DNA of 32,091 bases, from the NCBI GenBank assembly GCA_021809545.1, contig JAKAYL010000018.1, forward strand, positions 1-32,091, given 5' to 3'. Each line of letters begins with the position of its first letter. Positions within the stretch are counted from its first letter, which is position 1. A program made the position numbers and the translations under genes. Origin of the DNA: Thermoplasmata archaeon (GTDB taxonomy: Archaea; Thermoplasmatota; Thermoplasmata; Lutacidiplasmatales; UBA184). Positions 12,316 to 31,456 of the stretch are shown in pieces. The notes under the pieces were generated by a model, which saw only the letters and a list, made by a program, of their open reading frames with translations, searched no databases and was not told the DNA's origin.

Positions 12316-12336
12316 GTGAGATATCTTATAACCGCC

Positions 12337-12921
12337 ATGGCCGCGGAGAACTACGTCATCCTGAAGTCCATCCATCCCACCTGGTGCACCACCCAACTTC
12401 CCGGAGAGGTCGCGGAGCTCCTGGGCAGCTCCGCCGAGGACTTGAAGGGACTGCACCGTCCGGCCCGCTCCCTGGCCTTCCTCGCCCGGGGGCAGGGCAC
12501 CCTGAGGGTCCTGAGCCTCTTCCGCTCCTCGGATCTCCTTCAGCGCGAGATGCGGGAGAACCGGGTGGTAGCGACCGCCCAATTGACGGACAAGCTCGTC
12601 TTCAACATCCCGGCGGCAGTGGAGGAGTACCTCGGGCTGGTCTCCTTCCCGCGGGAGACCCCGAGCACCCGGGGGACGGACGACATGATCGTCTGGTTCA
12701 TGCCCGAAGAGGAATACTATGAGTACCGGGACCTTACCCGGGACAAGTCCCCCTTCTCGGCGCTCTCCTCTGGGCAGACGCCTCGGGTGTATCTCACCAA
12801 GTCGATCTTCTCTGCCCTCCGTCCCTCGCTCTCGGAAGAGGAGGGTCTCAAGGTCCGGCCCGCCCGGAGCTCGGGTACCTCCGGCCGTAAAGCCTCCTCC
12901 GCTTCCGCCCGGGGAGGCTGA
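12337..12921 (+). CDS. Uncharacterised protein, possible AbrB-like repeats
   Basis: I do not recognise this 194-residue protein. The start at 12337 follows from the TATA spacing and excludes seven codons of a longer frame. Two segments look alike and resemble an AbrB/SpoVT swapped-hairpin pattern: TTQLPGEVAELLGSS (about 19-33) and LVFNIPAAVEEYLGLVSF (about 88-105), each with P-x-x-V-x-E-x-L-G. A third similar strand RVYLTKSIFSALRP occurs near residue 150. The C-terminal tail from about 165 is rich in S, R and G and looks disordered. There is no signal peptide or membrane segment. It heads an operon with the SLOG and Nudix genes (7- and 6-base gaps), so a DNA-binding or adaptor role in nucleotide handling is conceivable but unproven. 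Confidence 0.55.
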   Translation: MAAENYVILKSIHPTWCTTQLPGEVAELLGSSAEDLKGLHRPARSLAFLARGQGTLRVLSLFRSSDLLQREMRENRVVATAQLTDKLVFNIPAAVEEYLGLVSFPRETPSTRGTDDMIVWFMPEEEYYEYRDLTRDKSPFSALSSGQTPRVYLTKSIFSALRPSLSEEEGLKVRPARSSGTSGRKASSASARGG

Positions 12922-14091: not shown

Positions 14092-15774
14092 TTAGGCCGG
14101 ACCCTGCTTCGGGTTGGGAGGGCTGAGCAGGCGGAAGCGTCCGGACTTCGCGACCTCGAGGGAGGTGGCGTAGCCGGCGTCCGCGTGGCGGACGACCCCG
14201 ATGCCGGGGTCCGAGTTGAGGACCCGGGAGATCTTCCGGTCGGCCTCATCCGTTCCGTCGGCGACGATGACGAGACCCGCGTGGATGGAGTTCCCGATCC
14301 CGACGCCGCCCCCGTGGTGGACGGAGACCCAGGTGGCCCCGCTCGCGGTGTTGAGGAGCGCGTTCAGGATGGGCCAGTCGGCGATCGCGTCCGAACCGTC
14401 CTGCATGGCCTCGGTCTCCCGGTAGGGAGAGGCCACGGCCCCCGTGTCGTGGTGGTCCCGTCCGATGGCGATGGGGGCGGAGAGCTCCTCCCGGTGGACC
14501 ATTTCGTTGACCAGGTGCCCGAACCGTTCCCGGTCACCGTAGCGCATGTAGCAGATCCGGGCCGGGAGCCCTTGGAAGTGGACCGTCTTTCCGGCGAGAC
14601 GGATCCACCGGCAGAGGTCCGCCTCGTGAGCGAACTCCTTGAGGATCATCTCGTCGATCTTGTGGATGTCGGAAGGTTCCCCGCTCAGGGCGACCCAACG
14701 GAAGGGCCCGGAGCCGACGGCAAAGAGGGGACGGATGTACTGCGGGACGTAGCCGGGGATGTCGAAGGCGTTCTCGAGGCCGCCTTCCTTGGCCCGGGTC
14801 CGGAAATTGTTCCCATAGTCGAAGGCCCTTGCCCCGCGCCGGATCATCTCGAGGATCGCTTTCGCCTCGAGGACGATCGCGCGGTAGACCTCGCTCTTGT
14901 AGCGCTCGGGCTCCCGCTCGCGGAACCAACGGGCCTCACCGGGGCTGTAGCCGATCGGGAGGTAGCCCACGCTGAGGTCGTGGGCGGCCGTCTGGTCGCT
15001 CACGATGTCGGGCGTGATCTTGCGACGGATGAGCTCCGGGTAGACCTCGGCCGCGTTGGCGAGGAGGCCGATGGAGAGGGGCTTCCCCTTCTGGAGCGCT
15101 TCGTCCTTCATCGCGAGGGCCTCGTCAAGCGACGGAGCCTGGACGTCCAGGTACCGCTTGTCGAGCCGGCGCTCGATGGCCCGCTCGTCGACGTCGACGA
15201 AGAGGCCGACCCCCTCAAGGAGGGTGGTCGCGAGCGGCTGGGCCCCTCCCATCTCCCCGAGGCCGGAGGACAGGAACCACTTCCCCTTGAGGGTCTGCTG
15301 ATGGAACTCGATGCGGGCGAGGGACGCGAGGGTCTCGTAGGTGCCCTGGAGGATCCCCTGGCTGCCGATGTAGATCCAGCTTCCCGCGGTCATCTGTCCG
15401 AACATCGTGAGCCCCTTGCGCTCGAGCTCCCAGAAGATATCGTCGGTCGCCCAGTGGGGTACGACCATCGCGTTGGAAAGGAGGACCCGTGGGGCGTCCC
15501 GGTGGGTGGGGAAGACCCCGACGGGCTTCCCAGACTGGATGAGGAGGGTCTCGTCGTCGTGGAGGTCCTTGAGGGCGGCGACGATCCGGTCGAAATCGTC
15601 CCAGGACCGGGCCGCCTTCCCGCGGCCGCCGTAGACGATCAGGTGGTCCGGGTCCCGGGCCACCTCGGGGTCGAGGTTGTTCATGAGGAGCCGGAGCGCG
15701 GCCTCCTGTTGCCAGCCGCGGGCGTGGAGCTTCTTCCCTCGGGGCGCGGTGACGACCCTAGGCTCCGAGGTCAT
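14092..15774 (-). CDS. hutU: Urocanate hydratase
   Basis: The 560-residue length and motifs match urocanase, which converts urocanate to 4-imidazolone-5-propionate in histidine breakdown using tightly bound NAD+. Visible hallmarks are [10 protein letters not shown] near 50, [18 protein letters not shown] region near 130, [12 protein letters not shown] (about 170), SDQTAAHD (about 262), and the active-site [18 protein letters not shown] with C408, equivalent to the catalytic cysteine of Pseudomonas urocanase. [17 protein letters not shown] (about 498) is also conserved. The ATG overlaps the coaBC stop as ATGA, so it is translated from the coaBC message. No histidase, imidazolonepropionase or formiminoglutamate enzyme genes lie in the window, so the rest of the pathway must be elsewhere. 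Confidence 0.95.
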
Positions 15775-17000
15775 TTTCCCGTCTCCCCTAGGGCCTCAAG
15801 GAGCTTCTGGGAGACGCGGCTCTTGTCCCCGGAGAGCTTGAGCGATTTTCCCGACTTCAGGATCAGGTAGACGGTCGCCTCTTCCGCCCCCATGGTGACC
15901 GGGTTGTTGGCCACAACCCCGTCCAGCTTGGCCTCTTTGAGGAGCTTCTGCCCCGTTCCGACGAGCTCGTCGGTGGTCCGGGTGGACGCGAGCTTGAAAC
16001 CGATGATCCGCACCGAGGGCGGGAGACGGGTCCGGAGCTCCGGGAGGAGCTTCTTCGCTCGGACCAGCTTGACGGTGAGGGTGGGGGATGCTTCCGACTC
16101 GATCTTCCCCTCCTTGCGTCCCTCCACGGTGAAGTCCGCCAGGGCCGCCGGCATGAGGAGGAGGGAGGTCCCCTTCAACTGGGCGAGGTTCTTGTCGATG
16201 AGCTGCTCGAGCTCCTTGAGGGTCTTGAACCGCTGGACGGGAACGTAGGGGTGCGCGGGCACGCGGGATTCCCCGAGCCAGAGCGTCACCTTGGCTCCCA
16301 TCCGGAAGGCCCAGGAGGAGAGTTCCACGGCCATCCGGCCGCTCCCGCCGTTCGAGATCGTCCGCACATCGTCGATGGGTTCCGCGGTGGCTCCCCCGAT
16401 CACCATCACCTGCTTCCCGCGGAGGGGTCCCCGCGAGAGGGCATGCATGGCATAGGCGACGACCGTAGCGGGGGTGGCGAGCTTCGCTTCTCCCTCCTCC
16501 ATCAAGGGAGGGACGACGGTGACACCGGCCTGCTCCAACACCTTCAGTTTCGCGGCGACGAAGGGATTGCGGGTCATCTCGGAATGCATGGCCGGGGCCA
16601 CGACCACCGGGATCTCAGAACCCAGCGCCATGCAGGCGCAGGTGGTGACGGAGGTGTCGCTGATCCCGCCCGCGATCTTGGTGAGGGTGTTGGCACTGGC
16701 GGGGGCGATCAGGAGGAGATCGGCCCGTCCCTTGCCGGGGCCGAAGAGCTGGACGTGCTCGACCTGGCCCGTGAGGTCCACCACGGGTTCCTTCCCGCTC
16801 GCGAATTCTATCGCATCCGGTGTGATGATGCCGGTGGCCTCCCGGGACATCACGGGGAAGACCTCGGCCCCATGGCGGATGAGCTCCCGCAGGATCTTCA
16901 CGGACTCCACGGCGGCGATCGAACCGGTGATCCCGACCACGATACGCTTTCCCGACAGGTAGTCGGACTTGTCTCCCCGGATGGCTTCGCTAGGGTGCAT
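15771..17000 (-). CDS. coaBC: Bifunctional phosphopantothenoylcysteine decarboxylase / phosphopantothenate-cysteine ligase
   Basis: 409 residues with both halves of CoaBC, which makes 4'-phosphopantetheine for coenzyme A. The CoaC flavoprotein half (about 17-190) has [35 protein letters not shown] and [13 protein letters not shown]; the histidine in PAMHSEM stands where bacterial enzymes have asparagine (PxMNxxM), as is usual in archaea. A conserved catalytic cysteine may be in TTCACMALG. The CoaB half (about 195-409) has [20 protein letters not shown] and [12 protein letters not shown], then the ADF loop (ALADFTVEG) and the lysine motif [14 protein letters not shown] box CTTTAA lies about 35 bases upstream. 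It is the promoter-proximal gene of a pair with hutU. Confidence 0.93.
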
Positions 17001-17030
17001 TGGTCCTCCGCACCAACAGAGCGGGGGGCG

Positions 17031-17040
17031 GTTAAAGTGT
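17031..17040 (-). promoter_or_regulatory. TATA box for coaBC-hutU
   Basis: On the minus strand CGGAAACACTTTAACC contains a purine-rich BRE and CTTTAA centred 35 bases before the ATG at 17000, which leaves a leader of about 8 bases. Confidence 0.5.
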
Positions 17041-17111
17041 TTCCGAAGAGCCCCGCGGTCCGGGAAAGAACCCCACCCCCGCCCGTTCGGTAGGTTCTAA
17101 CCACAACCCTC

Positions 17112-17120
17112 ATTACTTTG
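17112..17120 (+). promoter_or_regulatory. Candidate TATA box for the first paralogue
   Basis: ATTACTTTG is the AT-richest stretch within 40 bases of the ATG at 17146 and is centred about 30 bases before it. Weak match to the consensus; a second option TTCTAACC is at 17094-17101. Confidence 0.35.
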
Positions 17121-17145
17121 CGGTCTCCTCCGGCCGCCCGAACCG

Positions 17146-17739
17146 ATGGGCGAGAACTCGGGAAGCGCGGAAGCCCTCCTATCCGCCGGTTTCCGGCGCG
17201 TGGGGGAGAACTTCCTCTCCTTCCATGCCACGCTGCTGAAGGGGGAAGCTACCGAGGAGCACCTGCACCTCGCGAGCACAGGGATCGCCCGTGCTGTGGG
17301 GGATCTCGGTCAGCTCCTGAGGGAACACGCCTCCCAGCTTCGGATCGGCATGCCCACCGACGGGTACAGCCGATCCGGCAACCACTCCCTCCACCAGGAA
17401 TTCGAGCTCCTCGCCAAGGCCGTCGAACTGACCGGCCGGAAGCTGTCCGAGATCCCTGCGAACGTTCCTTCCCTGGAGGAGTCGGACACCCTGCGCCCCC
17501 TGGCGTCCCTCCGGGAGCGGTTGGTCGAGGGGGGGCGGAAATTCATCGTGGTCTCCTCCCTGCTCGGGGAGTCCGACCTCATCCTCTCCGAGCTCCCCCT
17601 CGACCACGGCCACCTGAACCGGCTGGAGAAGCGTCTCGCCTACCAGGTGAAGGAACTGGACGACCTCCTGCTCATCACCCGGGAGCAGGTCTCCGTTGCG
17701 GTCGTGGAGCTCGGTCTGACCCTCAAGAAGAGTCCTTGA
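17146..17739 (+). CDS. Uncharacterised helical protein, paralogue A
   Basis: I do not recognise this 197-residue protein. It is predicted almost wholly helical, soluble and acidic, without cysteines, signal peptide or membrane segments. It is a clear paralogue of the next gene along its whole length. Shared positions include SAE at 7-9, L-x-S-x-GFR, LLxExASxLRxG, GYxRxxN, LTGRKL, RxRLVExGRxF, VV, GHxxLxRLExR, VKELDD and RE, in the same order. The clusters LTGRKL and LxRLExR...KELDD are the strongest conserved parts and may form the core of a helical bundle. It diverges from coaBC, with about 145 bases between the start codons. No function is offered. Confidence 0.72.
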   Translation: MGENSGSAEALLSAGFRRVGENFLSFHATLLKGEATEEHLHLASTGIARAVGDLGQLLREHASQLRIGMPTDGYSRSGNHSLHQEFELLAKAVELTGRKLSEIPANVPSLEESDTLRPLASLRERLVEGGRKFIVVSSLLGESDLILSELPLDHGHLNRLEKRLAYQVKELDDLLLITREQVSVAVVELGLTLKKSP

Positions 17740-17789
17740 CCTATCCGGTGCTCTGCTTCCGACCGTTTTCCTCCCAGAATATTCCCTAT

Positions 17790-17809
17790 TGCGGTCAATC
17801 ACTACCGCA
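17790..17809. promoter_or_regulatory. Inverted repeat between the paralogues, possible operator
   Basis: TGCGGT (17790-17795) and ACCGCA (17804-17809) flank an 8-base AT-rich spacer. The dyad lies about 30 bases upstream of the TATA-like box for the second paralogue, in a low-GC intergenic stretch, a place suited to an archaeal regulator. It could also be a short hairpin at the 3' end of the first gene's mRNA. Confidence 0.35.
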
Positions 17810-17837
17810 TATCGAGTAATTCCCCTGGGAACCAGAA

Positions 17838-17846
17838 CATTCATAC
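17838..17846 (+). promoter_or_regulatory. TATA-like box for paralogue B
   Basis: CATTCATAC is centred 27 bases before the ATG at 17870, matching the leaderless spacing seen elsewhere in the window. It argues against the earlier in-frame start at 17789. Confidence 0.45.
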
Positions 17847-17869
17847 GGTTTTTCCCACATTTTTCCTTC

Positions 17870-18502
17870 ATGCAAGCGCATGTGGAAAGCGCCGAGACCC
17901 TGATCTCCTCGGGATTCCGGACCACGGGAGAGAGACTCCTCTCTCTCCGCTACGCCTCCCTGAAGGGGGCGAACGAAGCCTACGAACTACGTCTCGTGGA
18001 ACCCGATCTCGCGGAGTCCTTCCACGACCTCTCGAACCTCCTTGAGGAGGACGCCTCCCATCTGCGCGTGGGAGCCACGGCCGAGGGGTACCCACGACCG
18101 GAGAACACCACCATCCCGCTCGAGATGGAGTTCCTGTCCCAGGGAATGGCGCTCACGGGACGGAAGCTGGCCGACCTGGCCGGGACCCCGATCCCGAAGC
18201 CTGGGGAAGGGCCCCGTCCTCCCAGTCCCTTCCTCCGGGACCGTCTGGTGGAAACGGGGCGAAGGTTCCTCGTGGTCGCGACCCAGTTGGAGGAGGCCCA
18301 TCGCCTCCTCTCCGACACCTCTGCGGGACACATCTATCTTCACCGGCTCGAGCACCGGATGTCGCACGAGCTGAAGGAACTCGACGACTTCCTCTTCGGG
18401 CTCCGGGAGCATATCGGGGTGACCTTGGCCGAACTTGCGATCTATGCGAAGAAGGGGTCCTCACCCGAGACCGTGCACACGAGCCGGTTCCTTCAACCCT
18501 AG
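17870..18502 (+). CDS. Uncharacterised helical protein, paralogue B
   Basis: 210 residues, of unknown family, homologous end to end with the preceding gene. The start at 17870 is chosen because it puts the conserved SAE at residues 7-9 exactly as in paralogue A and has a TATA-like box at the leaderless distance; a start at 17789 would add 27 residues with no counterpart. Compared with A it has a proline-rich loop in the middle (GTPIPKPGEGPRPPSP) and a 15-residue C-terminal extension. The conserved features ALTGRKL, RDRLVETGRRF, LHRLEHRMSHELKELDD and LREHIG are kept. The two probably arose by tandem duplication and may form a heteromer, but nothing in the sequence proves this. It ends 30 bases before the convergent argH. 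Confidence 0.7.
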   Translation: MQAHVESAETLISSGFRTTGERLLSLRYASLKGANEAYELRLVEPDLAESFHDLSNLLEEDASHLRVGATAEGYPRPENTTIPLEMEFLSQGMALTGRKLADLAGTPIPKPGEGPRPPSPFLRDRLVETGRRFLVVATQLEEAHRLLSDTSAGHIYLHRLEHRMSHELKELDDFLFGLREHIGVTLAELAIYAKKGSSPETVHTSRFLQP

Positions 18503-18509
18503 GGGACTG

Positions 18510-18524
18510 GGGAAAGGCGTTCCC
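18510..18524. terminator. Short hairpin between convergent genes
   Basis: GGGAA and TTCCC form a 5-bp stem with a 5-base loop in the 30-base gap between paralogue B and argH. Weak; may help separate the convergent transcripts. Confidence 0.25.
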
Positions 18525-18532
18525 TCGGCGGG

Positions 18533-19960
18533 TCACGCTCGAAGAAGCTCTTCGATGAGCCGCGCCTTGCGGTGACGTTCCCGAACCGTCTGTCGCTGCG
18601 CTCTAATCACGGCCGCGTGCAGGAGCTTCTGGTCCCGCGAGACCTGGGTCCAAGAACTGCCCCCGGAGGTCTTCCGCATCTCCGCCTCGTCCGCGCCCCC
18701 GGGCGGGTCCCACCCCTCGGGGCCGAGCTCGGGGAAGGCTCGGGTCCAATCGTCCTTCGTGGCGTCAGGCAGGGCCTTCCCCTTCTCTTCGAGCGACCGC
18801 ACGAAGTCCGCGACCCGGCCGTGGGCGGTGCGGAAGGGAACCCCATGGGTCACGAGTGCGTTGGCAAGCTCCACACTGGCGGTGGAAGCCCCTTTCCCAG
18901 TTCCCTGGGGAAGGAAGGTGGCCGAACGGATGAGCGGGACGAGGAGGCGAAGGGCCCGTGCGCTCCGGGCCATGCCTTCCAGCAGGACCCGCTTCCCCGT
19001 CTGGAGGTCCCGGTTGTAGGCCAGGGGAAGCCCCTTGAGGATGCCCACTTCGGAGTGGGCGAAGCCGGAGAGGACCCCCGCCTCGGCCCTCAGGAGCTCG
19101 GCCAGATCGGGGTTCCGTTTGTGGGGCATGAGGCTGGAGGTGGTGACGAAGTCGTCCCCGAACCGCACGCGGGCGAACTGGGACGTGGACCAGAGCACCC
19201 ATTCCTCCGCCAGCGAGCTGAGATGCACCCCGAGGAGCGCAGCGGCCTGGAGAGCCTCCACAGAGGCATCCCGGTCCGAGACCGCATCCATGGAGTTGGA
19301 GTACGGTCCTTGGAACCCGAGCAAGCGGGCGGTGTGCACCGGGTCCAAGGGAAGTGAACTGCCGGCCACGGCCCCCGCCCCGAGTGGACAGTAGCGGAGG
19401 GACGAACGGATGCCTTCCAACCGTTGGGCGTCCCGGAGGAAACGGTGCGCGTGGACCTGGAGGATCTGGGCGAGATAGACCTGCTGGGCGTCCTGAAGGT
19501 GGGTCGCCGAGGGATAGACGAACTTGCCCTCCGGACCCCGGGAATGTCGAAGAAGCTCTGCGACGGACGCGAGCAGCGCCTCCTCTTGCGAGAGAAGGTT
19601 CTCCCGGAGGAAGAGGACGAGGTCGGTCGCCACGAGGTCGTTGCGGCTCCGGCCCGTCGGGAGCTTGGCTCCCACCTCTCCGAGCTCTTTCGTGAGGGCC
19701 GCCTCCACGTTCATGTGCACGTCCTCCAGGGAGGGGTCAAGCGGGAACTTGTCCCGGAGGGCCCGCCCGTGGAGCCGGGCCAGCTCCCGGAGAAGGGCCC
19801 TTCCCTCCTTGGCGGGGAGGAGCTTCTGGCGGACAAGCATCCGGGCATGAGCGGCGCTCGCGAGAATGTCGTAGGGAAGGAGCGCCCGGTCCTCCTCTAC
19901 AGAGGAACCGAAGGCGGCCGCCTCAGGGTGTGGTGGGTTGCGAAAGCGCTGTCTTAGCAA
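18533..19960 (-). CDS. argH: Argininosuccinate lyase
   Basis: This fumarase/aspartase-superfamily enzyme splits argininosuccinate into arginine and fumarate, the last step of arginine synthesis. Visible motifs are LLPYDILASAAHARML near the N-terminus, DVHMNVEAALTKELGEVGAKL, TGRSRNDLVATDL, SATHLQDAQQVYL (catalytic-base region), GAGAVAGSSLPLDP, and the signature TTSSLMPHKRNPDLAELLR. I take the TTG at 19960 as start (475 residues): it follows a strong GGGGGAGGA and puts LRQRF where the family has WGGRF. An ATG at 20011 would add 17 residues and enlarge the overlap with argG from 38 to 89 bases. The C-terminal part beyond about 440 is more variable. Last gene of the arg operon. Confidence 0.92.
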   Translation of the reverse strand: MLRQRFRNPPHPEAAAFGSSVEEDRALLPYDILASAAHARMLVRQKLLPAKEGRALLRELARLHGRALRDKFPLDPSLEDVHMNVEAALTKELGEVGAKLPTGRSRNDLVATDLVLFLRENLLSQEEALLASVAELLRHSRGPEGKFVYPSATHLQDAQQVYLAQILQVHAHRFLRDAQRLEGIRSSLRYCPLGAGAVAGSSLPLDPVHTARLLGFQGPYSNSMDAVSDRDASVEALQAAALLGVHLSSLAEEWVLWSTSQFARVRFGDDFVTTSSLMPHKRNPDLAELLRAEAGVLSGFAHSEVGILKGLPLAYNRDLQTGKRVLLEGMARSARALRLLVPLIRSATFLPQGTGKGASTASVELANALVTHGVPFRTAHGRVADFVRSLEEKGKALPDATKDDWTRAFPELGPEGWDPPGGADEAEMRKTSGGSSWTQVSRDQKLLHAAVIRAQRQTVRERHRKARLIEELLRA

Positions 19961-21194
19961 CGGAATTTCCTCCCCCCACGGGGGCACCCGCCCCACTCCT
20001 GCGCCGCACATAAGCGAGGCTGTTCGCGAGCCCGTAGAGGTGGATGAACCCCTCCGCCGCGCCCTCCGGGAAGGTCGACTCGCGGCCGTAGGTCGCGAGC
20101 TCCTTCGCGAGGAGCGAGTAGGGCGAGCTCCGTCCGACGACCCGGGAGCCCCCTTGGAGGAGCCGGAGAGTGACCTCACCGGTCACGCTCTCTTGGGTCG
20201 AATCGAGGAACGCGGAGATCGCCTCGCGGACCTGGCTGAACCAGAAGCCGCCGTAGACGACCTCGCTGAACTTGGGCTCCAGCTGGGTCTTGAGCGAGCG
20301 GAGCTCGCGCGGGAGGACGAGCGCTTCCAGGGCCATGTGCGCCTGGATGAGGGCGATGGCGGCCGGGCACTCGTAGGTCTCGCGGGACTTGATGCCGACC
20401 ACGCGGTCCTCCACATGGTCGATACGGCCGACCCCGTGCTTTCCGGCCAGGGCGTTCATCTTCTGGATGAGCGCGACCGGGGGAAGGCGCTGGCCGTCCA
20501 GGGACACGGGGATCCCCTCCTCGAACCCGATCACGACCTCTTGGGGATCGGTGGGCCAGGTGTCCGGGTGCCCCGTCCAGTCGAAGACCTCCTCCGGGGG
20601 GGCCGCGGCGGCGTCCTCAAGGACCCCGCCCTCGACGGAGCGGCCCCAGAGGTTCTCGTCCACGGAGTAGGGAGACTCCGGCTTGACGTGGATCTTGAGC
20701 CCGTGGGCGCGGGCGTACTCGATCTCGTCGGGGCGATTCATGTTCCACTCCCGGACGGGAGCGATGATGTTGAGGTCGGGGGCCAGGGTGTGCACCCCGA
20801 CGTCGAAACGGACCTGGTCGTTCCCCTTCCCCGTGCAACCGTGGGCCACGGTGTCGGCACCGACCTCCCGGGCGGCGGAAACGAGCTTGCTGACGATCAG
20901 CGGCCGGGCCAGGGCCGTGGAGAGGGGGTAGATCCCCTGGTAGAGGGCGTTCGCCTTGAGGGCCGGGAAGAGGAACTCCTCCGCAAAGCTCGCCTTGGCA
21001 TCGACGGTGCGGGCGTCGTACGCCCCGTTGAGGAGCGCCCGTTCCATCGCGTCGCGTGTCTCGCCTTCCTGGCCGACGTCCACGAGGAGCGTCGTCACCT
21101 TGGCTCCGTAGTGCTCCTTGATCCAAGGGATCGCCACGGAAGTGTCCAGTCCGCCCGAATACGCCAATACCACGTGTTCACTCTGCTTCGCCAT
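19923..21194 (-). CDS. argG: Argininosuccinate synthase
   Basis: 423 residues with the N-type ATP pyrophosphatase loop AYSGGLDTSVAIPWI (11-25), which binds ATP; the enzyme joins citrulline and aspartate through a citrulline-AMP intermediate. Other family signatures are GCTGKGNDQVRFDVG (about 118-132), the aspartate/citrulline-binding region IIAPVREWNMNR and PYSVDENLWGRSVEGG. GRIDHVEDRVVGIKSRETYE is also conserved. The last 20 or so residues (GAGAPVGGGNSVAKTALSQPTTP) are poorly conserved and are encoded where argH begins in another frame. It lies 24 bases after argB, with a GAGGAAAC sequence ahead of the ATG as ribosome site. Confidence 0.95.
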   Translation of the reverse strand: MAKQSEHVVLAYSGGLDTSVAIPWIKEHYGAKVTTLLVDVGQEGETRDAMERALLNGAYDARTVDAKASFAEEFLFPALKANALYQGIYPLSTALARPLIVSKLVSAAREVGADTVAHGCTGKGNDQVRFDVGVHTLAPDLNIIAPVREWNMNRPDEIEYARAHGLKIHVKPESPYSVDENLWGRSVEGGVLEDAAAAPPEEVFDWTGHPDTWPTDPQEVVIGFEEGIPVSLDGQRLPPVALIQKMNALAGKHGVGRIDHVEDRVVGIKSRETYECPAAIALIQAHMALEALVLPRELRSLKTQLEPKFSEVVYGGFWFSQVREAISAFLDSTQESVTGEVTLRLLQGGSRVVGRSSPYSLLAKELATYGRESTFPEGAAEGFIHLYGLANSLAYVRRRSGAGAPVGGGNSVAKTALSQPTTP

Positions 21195-30159: not shown

Positions 30160-30684
30160 ATGATGAAGAGAGGAATGCCTCCGCTGAAGCTCTCAGCGGG
30201 AAGGAAGAACAAGCGCGGAGTATCGCCGATCATCGCCACGATCCTGCTGGTCGCCATCACTGTGGTCATTGCCGCAGTGCTGTATGTGCTGGTGAGCGGG
30301 TATCTGAAGGGGACAGGCTCGGCTCCTCTCAGTATCAACCTGCAGAGCCTGACCACGGGCCACAATGGGCCGAAGACTGCCTACTACCTCAACTTTTCCA
30401 CCATCTCGGCATCTAACTCGATGACGACGAACGACTTCGGCTGGAAGATCGTCAATGTGAATGGCAATGCCGTAGTCGGTTGGAAGTGTTATCTCTACTG
30501 GGGAACCACGAACGTTACATCTTTTAGCGCGGGCGGCTCCAGTTGGGGTGCCACTGAGCCAGTGAACGCATCGGACTCGATGGTCTTCTGGACTGGTGGA
30601 ACAAACTTGGTCGGATCTGGTGACAGCATCCAGGCGGTCGGACTGAGCGGTGCTTCGGTCAGCGGCGGGTACCAGGGCCTCTAG
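30160..30684 (+). CDS. Type IV pilin-like protein 1
   Basis: 174 residues with an archaeal class III signal: basic leader ending NKRG, then VSPIIATILLVAITVVIAAV as the hydrophobic assembly helix. A prepilin peptidase would cut between G and V at about residue 20. The mature head (about 55-174) is rich in S, T, N and G, with WKIVNVNGNAVVGWKCYLYW and a C-terminal SGGYQGL shared with pilin 2. This is the Pilin_N/DUF1628 type found in archaeal adhesive pili. ATG 30160 is followed at once by another ATG; the ribosome site favours the first. No pilus ATPase or membrane platform genes are present in the window. A strong hairpin-plus-T terminator follows. Confidence 0.85.
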   Translation: MMKRGMPPLKLSAGRKNKRGVSPIIATILLVAITVVIAAVLYVLVSGYLKGTGSAPLSINLQSLTTGHNGPKTAYYLNFSTISASNSMTTNDFGWKIVNVNGNAVVGWKCYLYWGTTNVTSFSAGGSSWGATEPVNASDSMVFWTGGTNLVGSGDSIQAVGLSGASVSGGYQGL

Positions 30685-30906: not shown

Positions 30907-30946
30907 CGTTCCCTACCAGTTATTGGTACAGAGGGGCTCGAGAGAC

Positions 30947-31456
30947 ATGAATGGAATCAGAAACACCCGCAGGCGTTTACCTCGTCGAGGGGTCTCACCG
31001 ATCATTGCCACGATTTTGCTGGTCGCCATCACCGTAGTTATCGCCGCGGTACTCTACGTGTTGGTCTCGGGCTATCTCAAGGGGACTTCGCCAGCTCCCT
31101 TGACTATTGAACTGCAGGGAGAAGCTCCAGGGCATAACGCCGCCAACACGATGCACTGGCTAAACTTCTCCGTGGTCACCTCCTCCAAGGGGCTCGATAC
31201 TGGGGTCTTCGCCTTCAAGATTGTGAACATCCAAGGCAATGCAGTGTCTGGTTGGAGCGTGAGCCTGATCTACAACCAGGCCGTGGTCTCCACCTATGTC
31301 CAGGGACAAGATTCGTGGTCAACGGTGGTCCCCGTCAACGCGTCTGAATTCCTTTCGTTCAATACGGGGGCGAATAGCCTCGTAGGTAGTGACGATACAA
31401 TCCAGGCTTATGGCCTCAGTAGCGAGGCCATTTCTGGGGGCTATCCGGCACTCTGA
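30947..31456 (+). CDS. Type IV pilin-like protein 2
   Basis: 169 residues, paralogue of pilin 1. The leader MNGIRNTRRRLPRRG precedes the same hydrophobic helix (VSPIIATILLVAITVVIAAV and on through LYVLVSGYLKGT), residue for residue, while the DNA differs mainly at third codon positions. The heads diverge (no cysteine here, one in pilin 1) but share FKIVNIQGNAVSGW, the PVNAS motif near 133, GDD/GDS-TIQAYGLS and the final SGGYPAL. The ATG at 30947 follows a likely ribosome site GAGGGG. Both pilins are separate units with their own promoters, so they may be used in turn or as major and minor subunits. Confidence 0.85.
   Translation: MNGIRNTRRRLPRRGVSPIIATILLVAITVVIAAVLYVLVSGYLKGTSPAPLTIELQGEAPGHNAANTMHWLNFSVVTSSKGLDTGVFAFKIVNIQGNAVSGWSVSLIYNQAVVSTYVQGQDSWSTVVPVNASEFLSFNTGANSLVGSDDTIQAYGLSSEAISGGYPAL

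Follow-up and report, generated by a model that had tools for sequence, protein, structure and literature searches.

The window, the whole 32,091-nt stretch of DNA analysed, carries two adjacent same-strand genes, g1 and g2, in the interval between the housekeeping genes coaBC and argH. The features of the locus are as follows.

15771..17000, minus strand: coaBC, phosphopantothenoylcysteine synthase/decarboxylase (Pfam DFP and Flavoprotein), a housekeeping gene divergent from g1.
17109..17119, plus strand: weak TATA-like stretch CTCATTACTTT, some 34 nt upstream of the g1 ATG.
17146..17739, plus strand: g1, 197 aa, an open reading frame with 42% identity to g2, a 55% identical orthologue in the congener G015 and an AlphaFold2 (AF2) model.
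17740..17869, no strand: 130-bp spacer between g1 and g2, holding a dyad and the weak TATA-like stretch CATTCATA.
17870..18502, plus strand: g2, 210 aa, a paralogue of g1 identified from the open reading frame, the alignment and an AF2 model.
18533..20179, minus strand: argH, argininosuccinate lyase (Pfam Lyase_1 and ASL_C2), a housekeeping gene convergent with g2.

The list of open reading frames starts g2 at a TTG at 17789; homology and alignment begin at the ATG at 17870. Over 190 aligned residues, g1 and g2 share 42% identity (bit score 132, E 7e-44 in a single comparison), and their alignment score of 345 compares with 35.4 +/- 5.8 in shuffled sequence. These values bear out the initial annotation, which described tandem paralogues of 197 and 210 aa that are alike throughout: lengths and coordinates agree, the end-to-end alignment lies far above shuffled sequence, and every motif it listed is found in both proteins (SAE, at residues 7-9 of each, GFR, LTGRKL, RLVExGRxF, RLExR and KELDD). 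Elsewhere in the window, positions 12316-12921 encode a protein of 201 aa that Pfam does not recognise but that is 68% identical to a G015 copy, and so is conserved but uncharacterised in the genus, and positions 30160-30684 and 30923-31456 hold pilin-like tandem paralogues with a common N-terminal segment, RGVSPIIATILLVAITVVIAAVLYVLVSGYLKG.

A third paralogue, g3, lies unlinked on contig C29 of the window's own genome (G000), between pyrB and the tRNA m1A methyltransferase gene (trmI), and is 41% identical to g1. The g1 orthologue in G015 (55% identity) runs to residue 148, where its contig ends; a second congener, G021, carries the same gene divided over two contig ends, with 164 of 165 nt identical to G015. 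End-to-end homology in a family alignment, A1, unites g1, g2, g3 and the G015/G021 orthologues in one new family. Its invariant positions, judged on the full-length members only (n = 3), are E9, F16, G20, K32, G33, L65, R66, G68, G73, E85, T96, R98, K99, R125, E128, G130 and E142. Because g1 is nearer to the G015 copy (55%) than to g2 (42%) or g3 (41%), the duplications appear, by this argument from distance, to predate the split of the present species of the genus. No further, more distant paralogues were found at E <= 10 in the five genus genomes.

The region between g1 and g2 had been proposed to hint at differing control of the two genes, through a dyad and separate TATA boxes. The dyad, TGCGGT-N8-ACCGCA at 17790-17809, has a geometry at chance level: a perfect 6-bp dyad with a spacer of 8 nt occurs 18 times in the 32-kb window, and allowing spacers of 0-20 nt gives 381. 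It is not seen upstream of g3 or the G015 orthologue, and we reject it both as an operator and as a hint of differing control. The TATA-like stretches fare somewhat better. Ahead of every family gene, at roughly 30-36 nt from the ATG, lies a weak, A/T-rich stretch of this kind, including CATTCATA about 32 nt ahead of g2 and the similar CTCATTAACT before the G015 orthologue, and this shared position lends mild support to separate promoters. Their scores (5.0-5.5, where 5.0 is the 90-95% level of random window positions) are found at roughly 5-10% of random positions, so that the proposed separate boxes are plausible but weak. No Rfam match to a structural RNA was found in positions 16900-18700.

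Profile and protein searches place the family in three of the five genomes of the genus and find it absent from the rest of the order (106 genomes), from 400 genomes of the class and from 390 of the phylum; two near-complete congeners (98% and 93%) are without it even at E <= 10. A pattern scan with A1 across 84,980 species genomes, which is sensitive to close relatives only, returned 'Thermoplasmata archaeon isolate FK3.bin56' (JAJYXQ010000020.1) as its sole match, and searches of viral contigs, phages and plasmids gave no family relatives. It is close to certain, as far as the searched collections reach, that the family is restricted to the genus. In this it resembles archaeal orphan (taxonomically restricted) families, which are likewise small, soluble, patchy in one genus and without an annotated homologue; it differs from such families in general by its three paralogues in one genome (G000) and its confidently predicted fold.

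The family genes occupy three intergenic sites, coaBC-argH and pyrB-trmI in G000 and an interval between a secreted protein and get3 in G015 and G021, and for each site one congener or more has a counterpart free of the gene. Between argH and coaBC, G009 and G021 have an interval of several kb with other genes instead, among them ABC transporter components, a NUDIX protein and an acetyltransferase, names read from sequence rather than from profiles. The interval (window 17000-18533; L035; L036) is a variable region of the genus with species-specific cargo. At the pyrB-trmI interval the family gene is absent in G009, and other ORFs take its place in G021 and G003. The G015/G021 copy is flanked on one side by a large secreted protein and a small CxxC zinc-ribbon-like ORF and on the other by a 106-aa ORF and a Get3/ArsA-type ATPase; on contig C27 of G000 these neighbours adjoin with the family gene missing between them, an empty site. 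Two small ORFs at this site lie as follows.

L008:7880-8060 and L071:5990-6229, minus strand: small conserved ORF MPRRKYGRLRKPIPPVPREKCRFCRLKRTCPIHGP (G015), CxxC...C zinc-ribbon-like, with the secreted protein on one side and the family gene or get3 on the other; it probably encodes a small zinc protein that has escaped annotation.
L010:143-463 and L071:6284-6547, minus strand: 106-aa ORF adjoining get3/arsA, with no Pfam family, kept in G021 and G000 at 45% identity.

At the get3-side site the contigs of both congeners stop within the family gene (L008:8629, L009:3832, L010:1), breaks that might reflect a tandem or strain-variable copy. Across the three sites no conserved partner gene accompanies the family, and the undescribed 'system' suggested by the initial annotation is accordingly not borne out.

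The distribution raises the question of whether these genes came as cargo with an archaeal virus or a mobile element, for instance as an immunity or host-takeover protein, and were stranded at several chromosomal sites. Patchy occurrence in three of five congeners, insertion sites that differ and an empty site in G000 flanked by syntenic genes would all fit, as would fairly fast divergence (55% identity, against 80-85% for the hutU and pyrB orthologues). Set against this are the absence of relatives from viral contigs, phages and plasmids, PHROG and PADLOC searches without an accepted match, and surroundings in which no convincing flanking repeats and no recombinase near the family genes were seen. 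Base composition also argues against it: GC3 is 0.86 in g1 and 0.81 in g2, inside the range of neighbouring genes (0.79-0.94), and thus gives no sign of recent foreign origin. On balance we regard a mobile or viral source as unlikely.

AlphaFold2, run on a four-row alignment, predicts g1 to be a five-helix bundle (mean pLDDT 81.3, pTM 0.83; H8-31, H37-64, H82-100, H113-147 and H154-195) whose least certain part is the H2-H3 loop, with a pLDDT of about 53. For g2 the same five helices are predicted (pLDDT 77.4, pTM 0.77), confidently only in the best of five models and with a poorly modelled C-terminal tail (197-210). Both models are all-helical, in keeping with the helical family first proposed. 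An internal duplication of N half and C half was considered and rejected (hhalign probability 0.2%). The family proteins are about 200 aa long, acidic (pI 5.5-5.8) and free of Cys and Trp; their highest 19-residue hydropathy is only 1.29, which argues against a membrane helix.

Such a protein invites comparison with PhoU/DUF47 (PF01865; SO_3770, 2iiu/2olt), likewise an all-helical bundle of about 200 residues, and g1 and g2 might be highly divergent PhoU/DUF47 (PhoU_div) members that regulate phosphate transport. Length and helical content are comparable, and PhoU-like SO_3770 (2iiu, 2olt; E 0.035-0.13, probability 0.94-0.98) accounts for six of the top seven PDB fold matches of the g1 model in Foldseek, with 1sum and 1t8b following; the g2 model matches 1xwm, 1sum and 4q25 at E about 0.35-0.4. 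The best of these, g1 to SO_3770 (E 0.035, probability 0.98, TM 0.42), is below significance, and we treat it as a lead only because long-helix bundles match one another non-specifically. The g1 fold matches have TM values of 0.36-0.43 and rmsd of 13-20 Å, none reaching E <= 0.001, and the top matches of g2 are the vinculin tail and designed bundles, with PhoU appearing from rank 8 down.

Comparisons of sequence profiles weigh further against PhoU membership. Hhalign gives a probability of 0.1-0.5% against DUF47, whereas DUF47 subfamilies reach 97-98% among themselves; the set comprised 21 collected DUF47 sequences, with one mis-framed and one doubtful sequence omitted, and the reference domains came from 26 genomes including G000. 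PF01865 itself has no match at E <= 10 for g1 and g2 or at E <= 5 for four members. PhoU proteins are characterised by the motif E(D)xxxD (PMC5686610), six helices and a link to phosphate transport, whereas the new family has no conserved [DE]xxxD or E(D)xxxD column pair, five predicted helices, and no phosphate transporter adjoining any copy at its three sites. A genuine PhoU_div domain is moreover encoded separately in G000 (G000:C27:101426-101932; L058), inside a 699-aa ORF, which suggests a transporter-regulator fusion; most relatives of the family show the same arrangement. Taken with the weak fold matches, these differences make descent from PhoU quite improbable.

Searches of Pfam, NCBIfam, PHROGs, PADLOC and PDB sequences returned no accepted family match, in agreement with the initial annotation that no known family has this pattern. 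Several weak hits were rejected. DUF5494 (PF17598) matches a single 47-residue stretch of g2 at E 0.045 and 14.3 bits, far below the curated cut-off of 27 bits, and as this similarity is seen in one of four family members we treat it as chance. TT_ORF2a (E 0.067), MTase_II (E 0.018) and phrog_13088 (E 0.15) each match one member at loose E-values; the TAL effector hits among PDB sequences (E 0.002-0.025) reach these values by summation over repeat units, with no single stretch passing; and SPAC4H3.06 (8j0h; E 0.03-0.2) matches one coiled stretch only, unsupported by g3 alone.

An all-helical protein of about 200 aa could also be a ferritin-like, haemerythrin-like or other metal-binding four-helix bundle, acting as a sensor or oxidoreductase. 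This is very unlikely: His is not conserved in any column of the family, ExxH and HxxxE pairs are likewise not conserved whatever the register, the alignment lacks a conserved His/Asp/Glu pattern of the metal-ligand or catalytic kind, Pfam and PDB sequence searches are without such a match, and the leading fold matches of g1 and g2 include no ferritin-like protein. Given unrelated profiles and the lack of conservation of both E(D)xxxD and His, we make no claim of PhoU/DUF47 or ferritin-like membership. A match to either had been named as what would overturn an unrecognised family; none was accepted, and the family remains unrecognised.

Codon-level comparisons show that g1 and g2 are real protein-coding genes under purifying selection. 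Differences between g1 and its G015 orthologue amount to 0.28, 0.23 and 0.56 at the first, second and third codon positions, and dN/dS (NG86) is 0.32 for this pair and 0.41-0.56 for the remaining pairs, values that are approximate at dS of about 1 or higher. The window's other frames are rich in long spurious ORFs, as a GC-rich genome would lead one to suspect of g1 and g2 too, but the third-position bias and dN/dS exclude this, four homologous copies keep the protein while third positions vary, and the g1 fold is predicted with confidence, so that a spurious origin is refuted and has a negligible chance of being right.

We propose that g1 and g2 represent a hitherto undescribed accessory family, restricted to one genus, of cytosolic five-helix-bundle adaptors that act by protein contact, a reading to which, taken in full, we assign a probability of about 0.45. 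On the strength of the predicted architecture, each protein would serve, without catalysis, as a scaffold or adaptor docking onto a second protein, and g1, g2 and g3 may assemble into homo- or hetero-oligomers. Surface conservation is expected to be highest, and contact likeliest, around the H2-H3 loop (LRIGxPT[DE]GY) and the conserved basic residues R66, R98/K99, R125 and R132. A small-molecule or nucleic-acid ligand is an equally good candidate for what these basic residues serve. Such a mode of action would loosely recall that of PhoU as a helical-bundle adaptor, without the PhoU metal motifs or evidence of PhoU descent. The genes would be stand-alone accessory genes, now found at intergenic sites that differ between species. 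A more far-reaching version, in which lineage-specific adaptors with no detectable relatives spread as single genes from one intergenic site to another among congeneric archaea, without a transposase or virus, and their hetero-oligomers control a genus-specific process, seems to us improbable.

Collectively, our analysis describes a family that is new and ordinary in kind, a genus-restricted orphan with a predicted helical bundle, and by itself it leaves the picture of known processes unchanged. It offers a clean, bounded case of an orphan family: there are three paralogues, selection is purifying, the fold is predicted with confidence and an empty site has been mapped. It is thereby useful for asking how orphan families originate and how single genes move between archaeal chromosomal sites.
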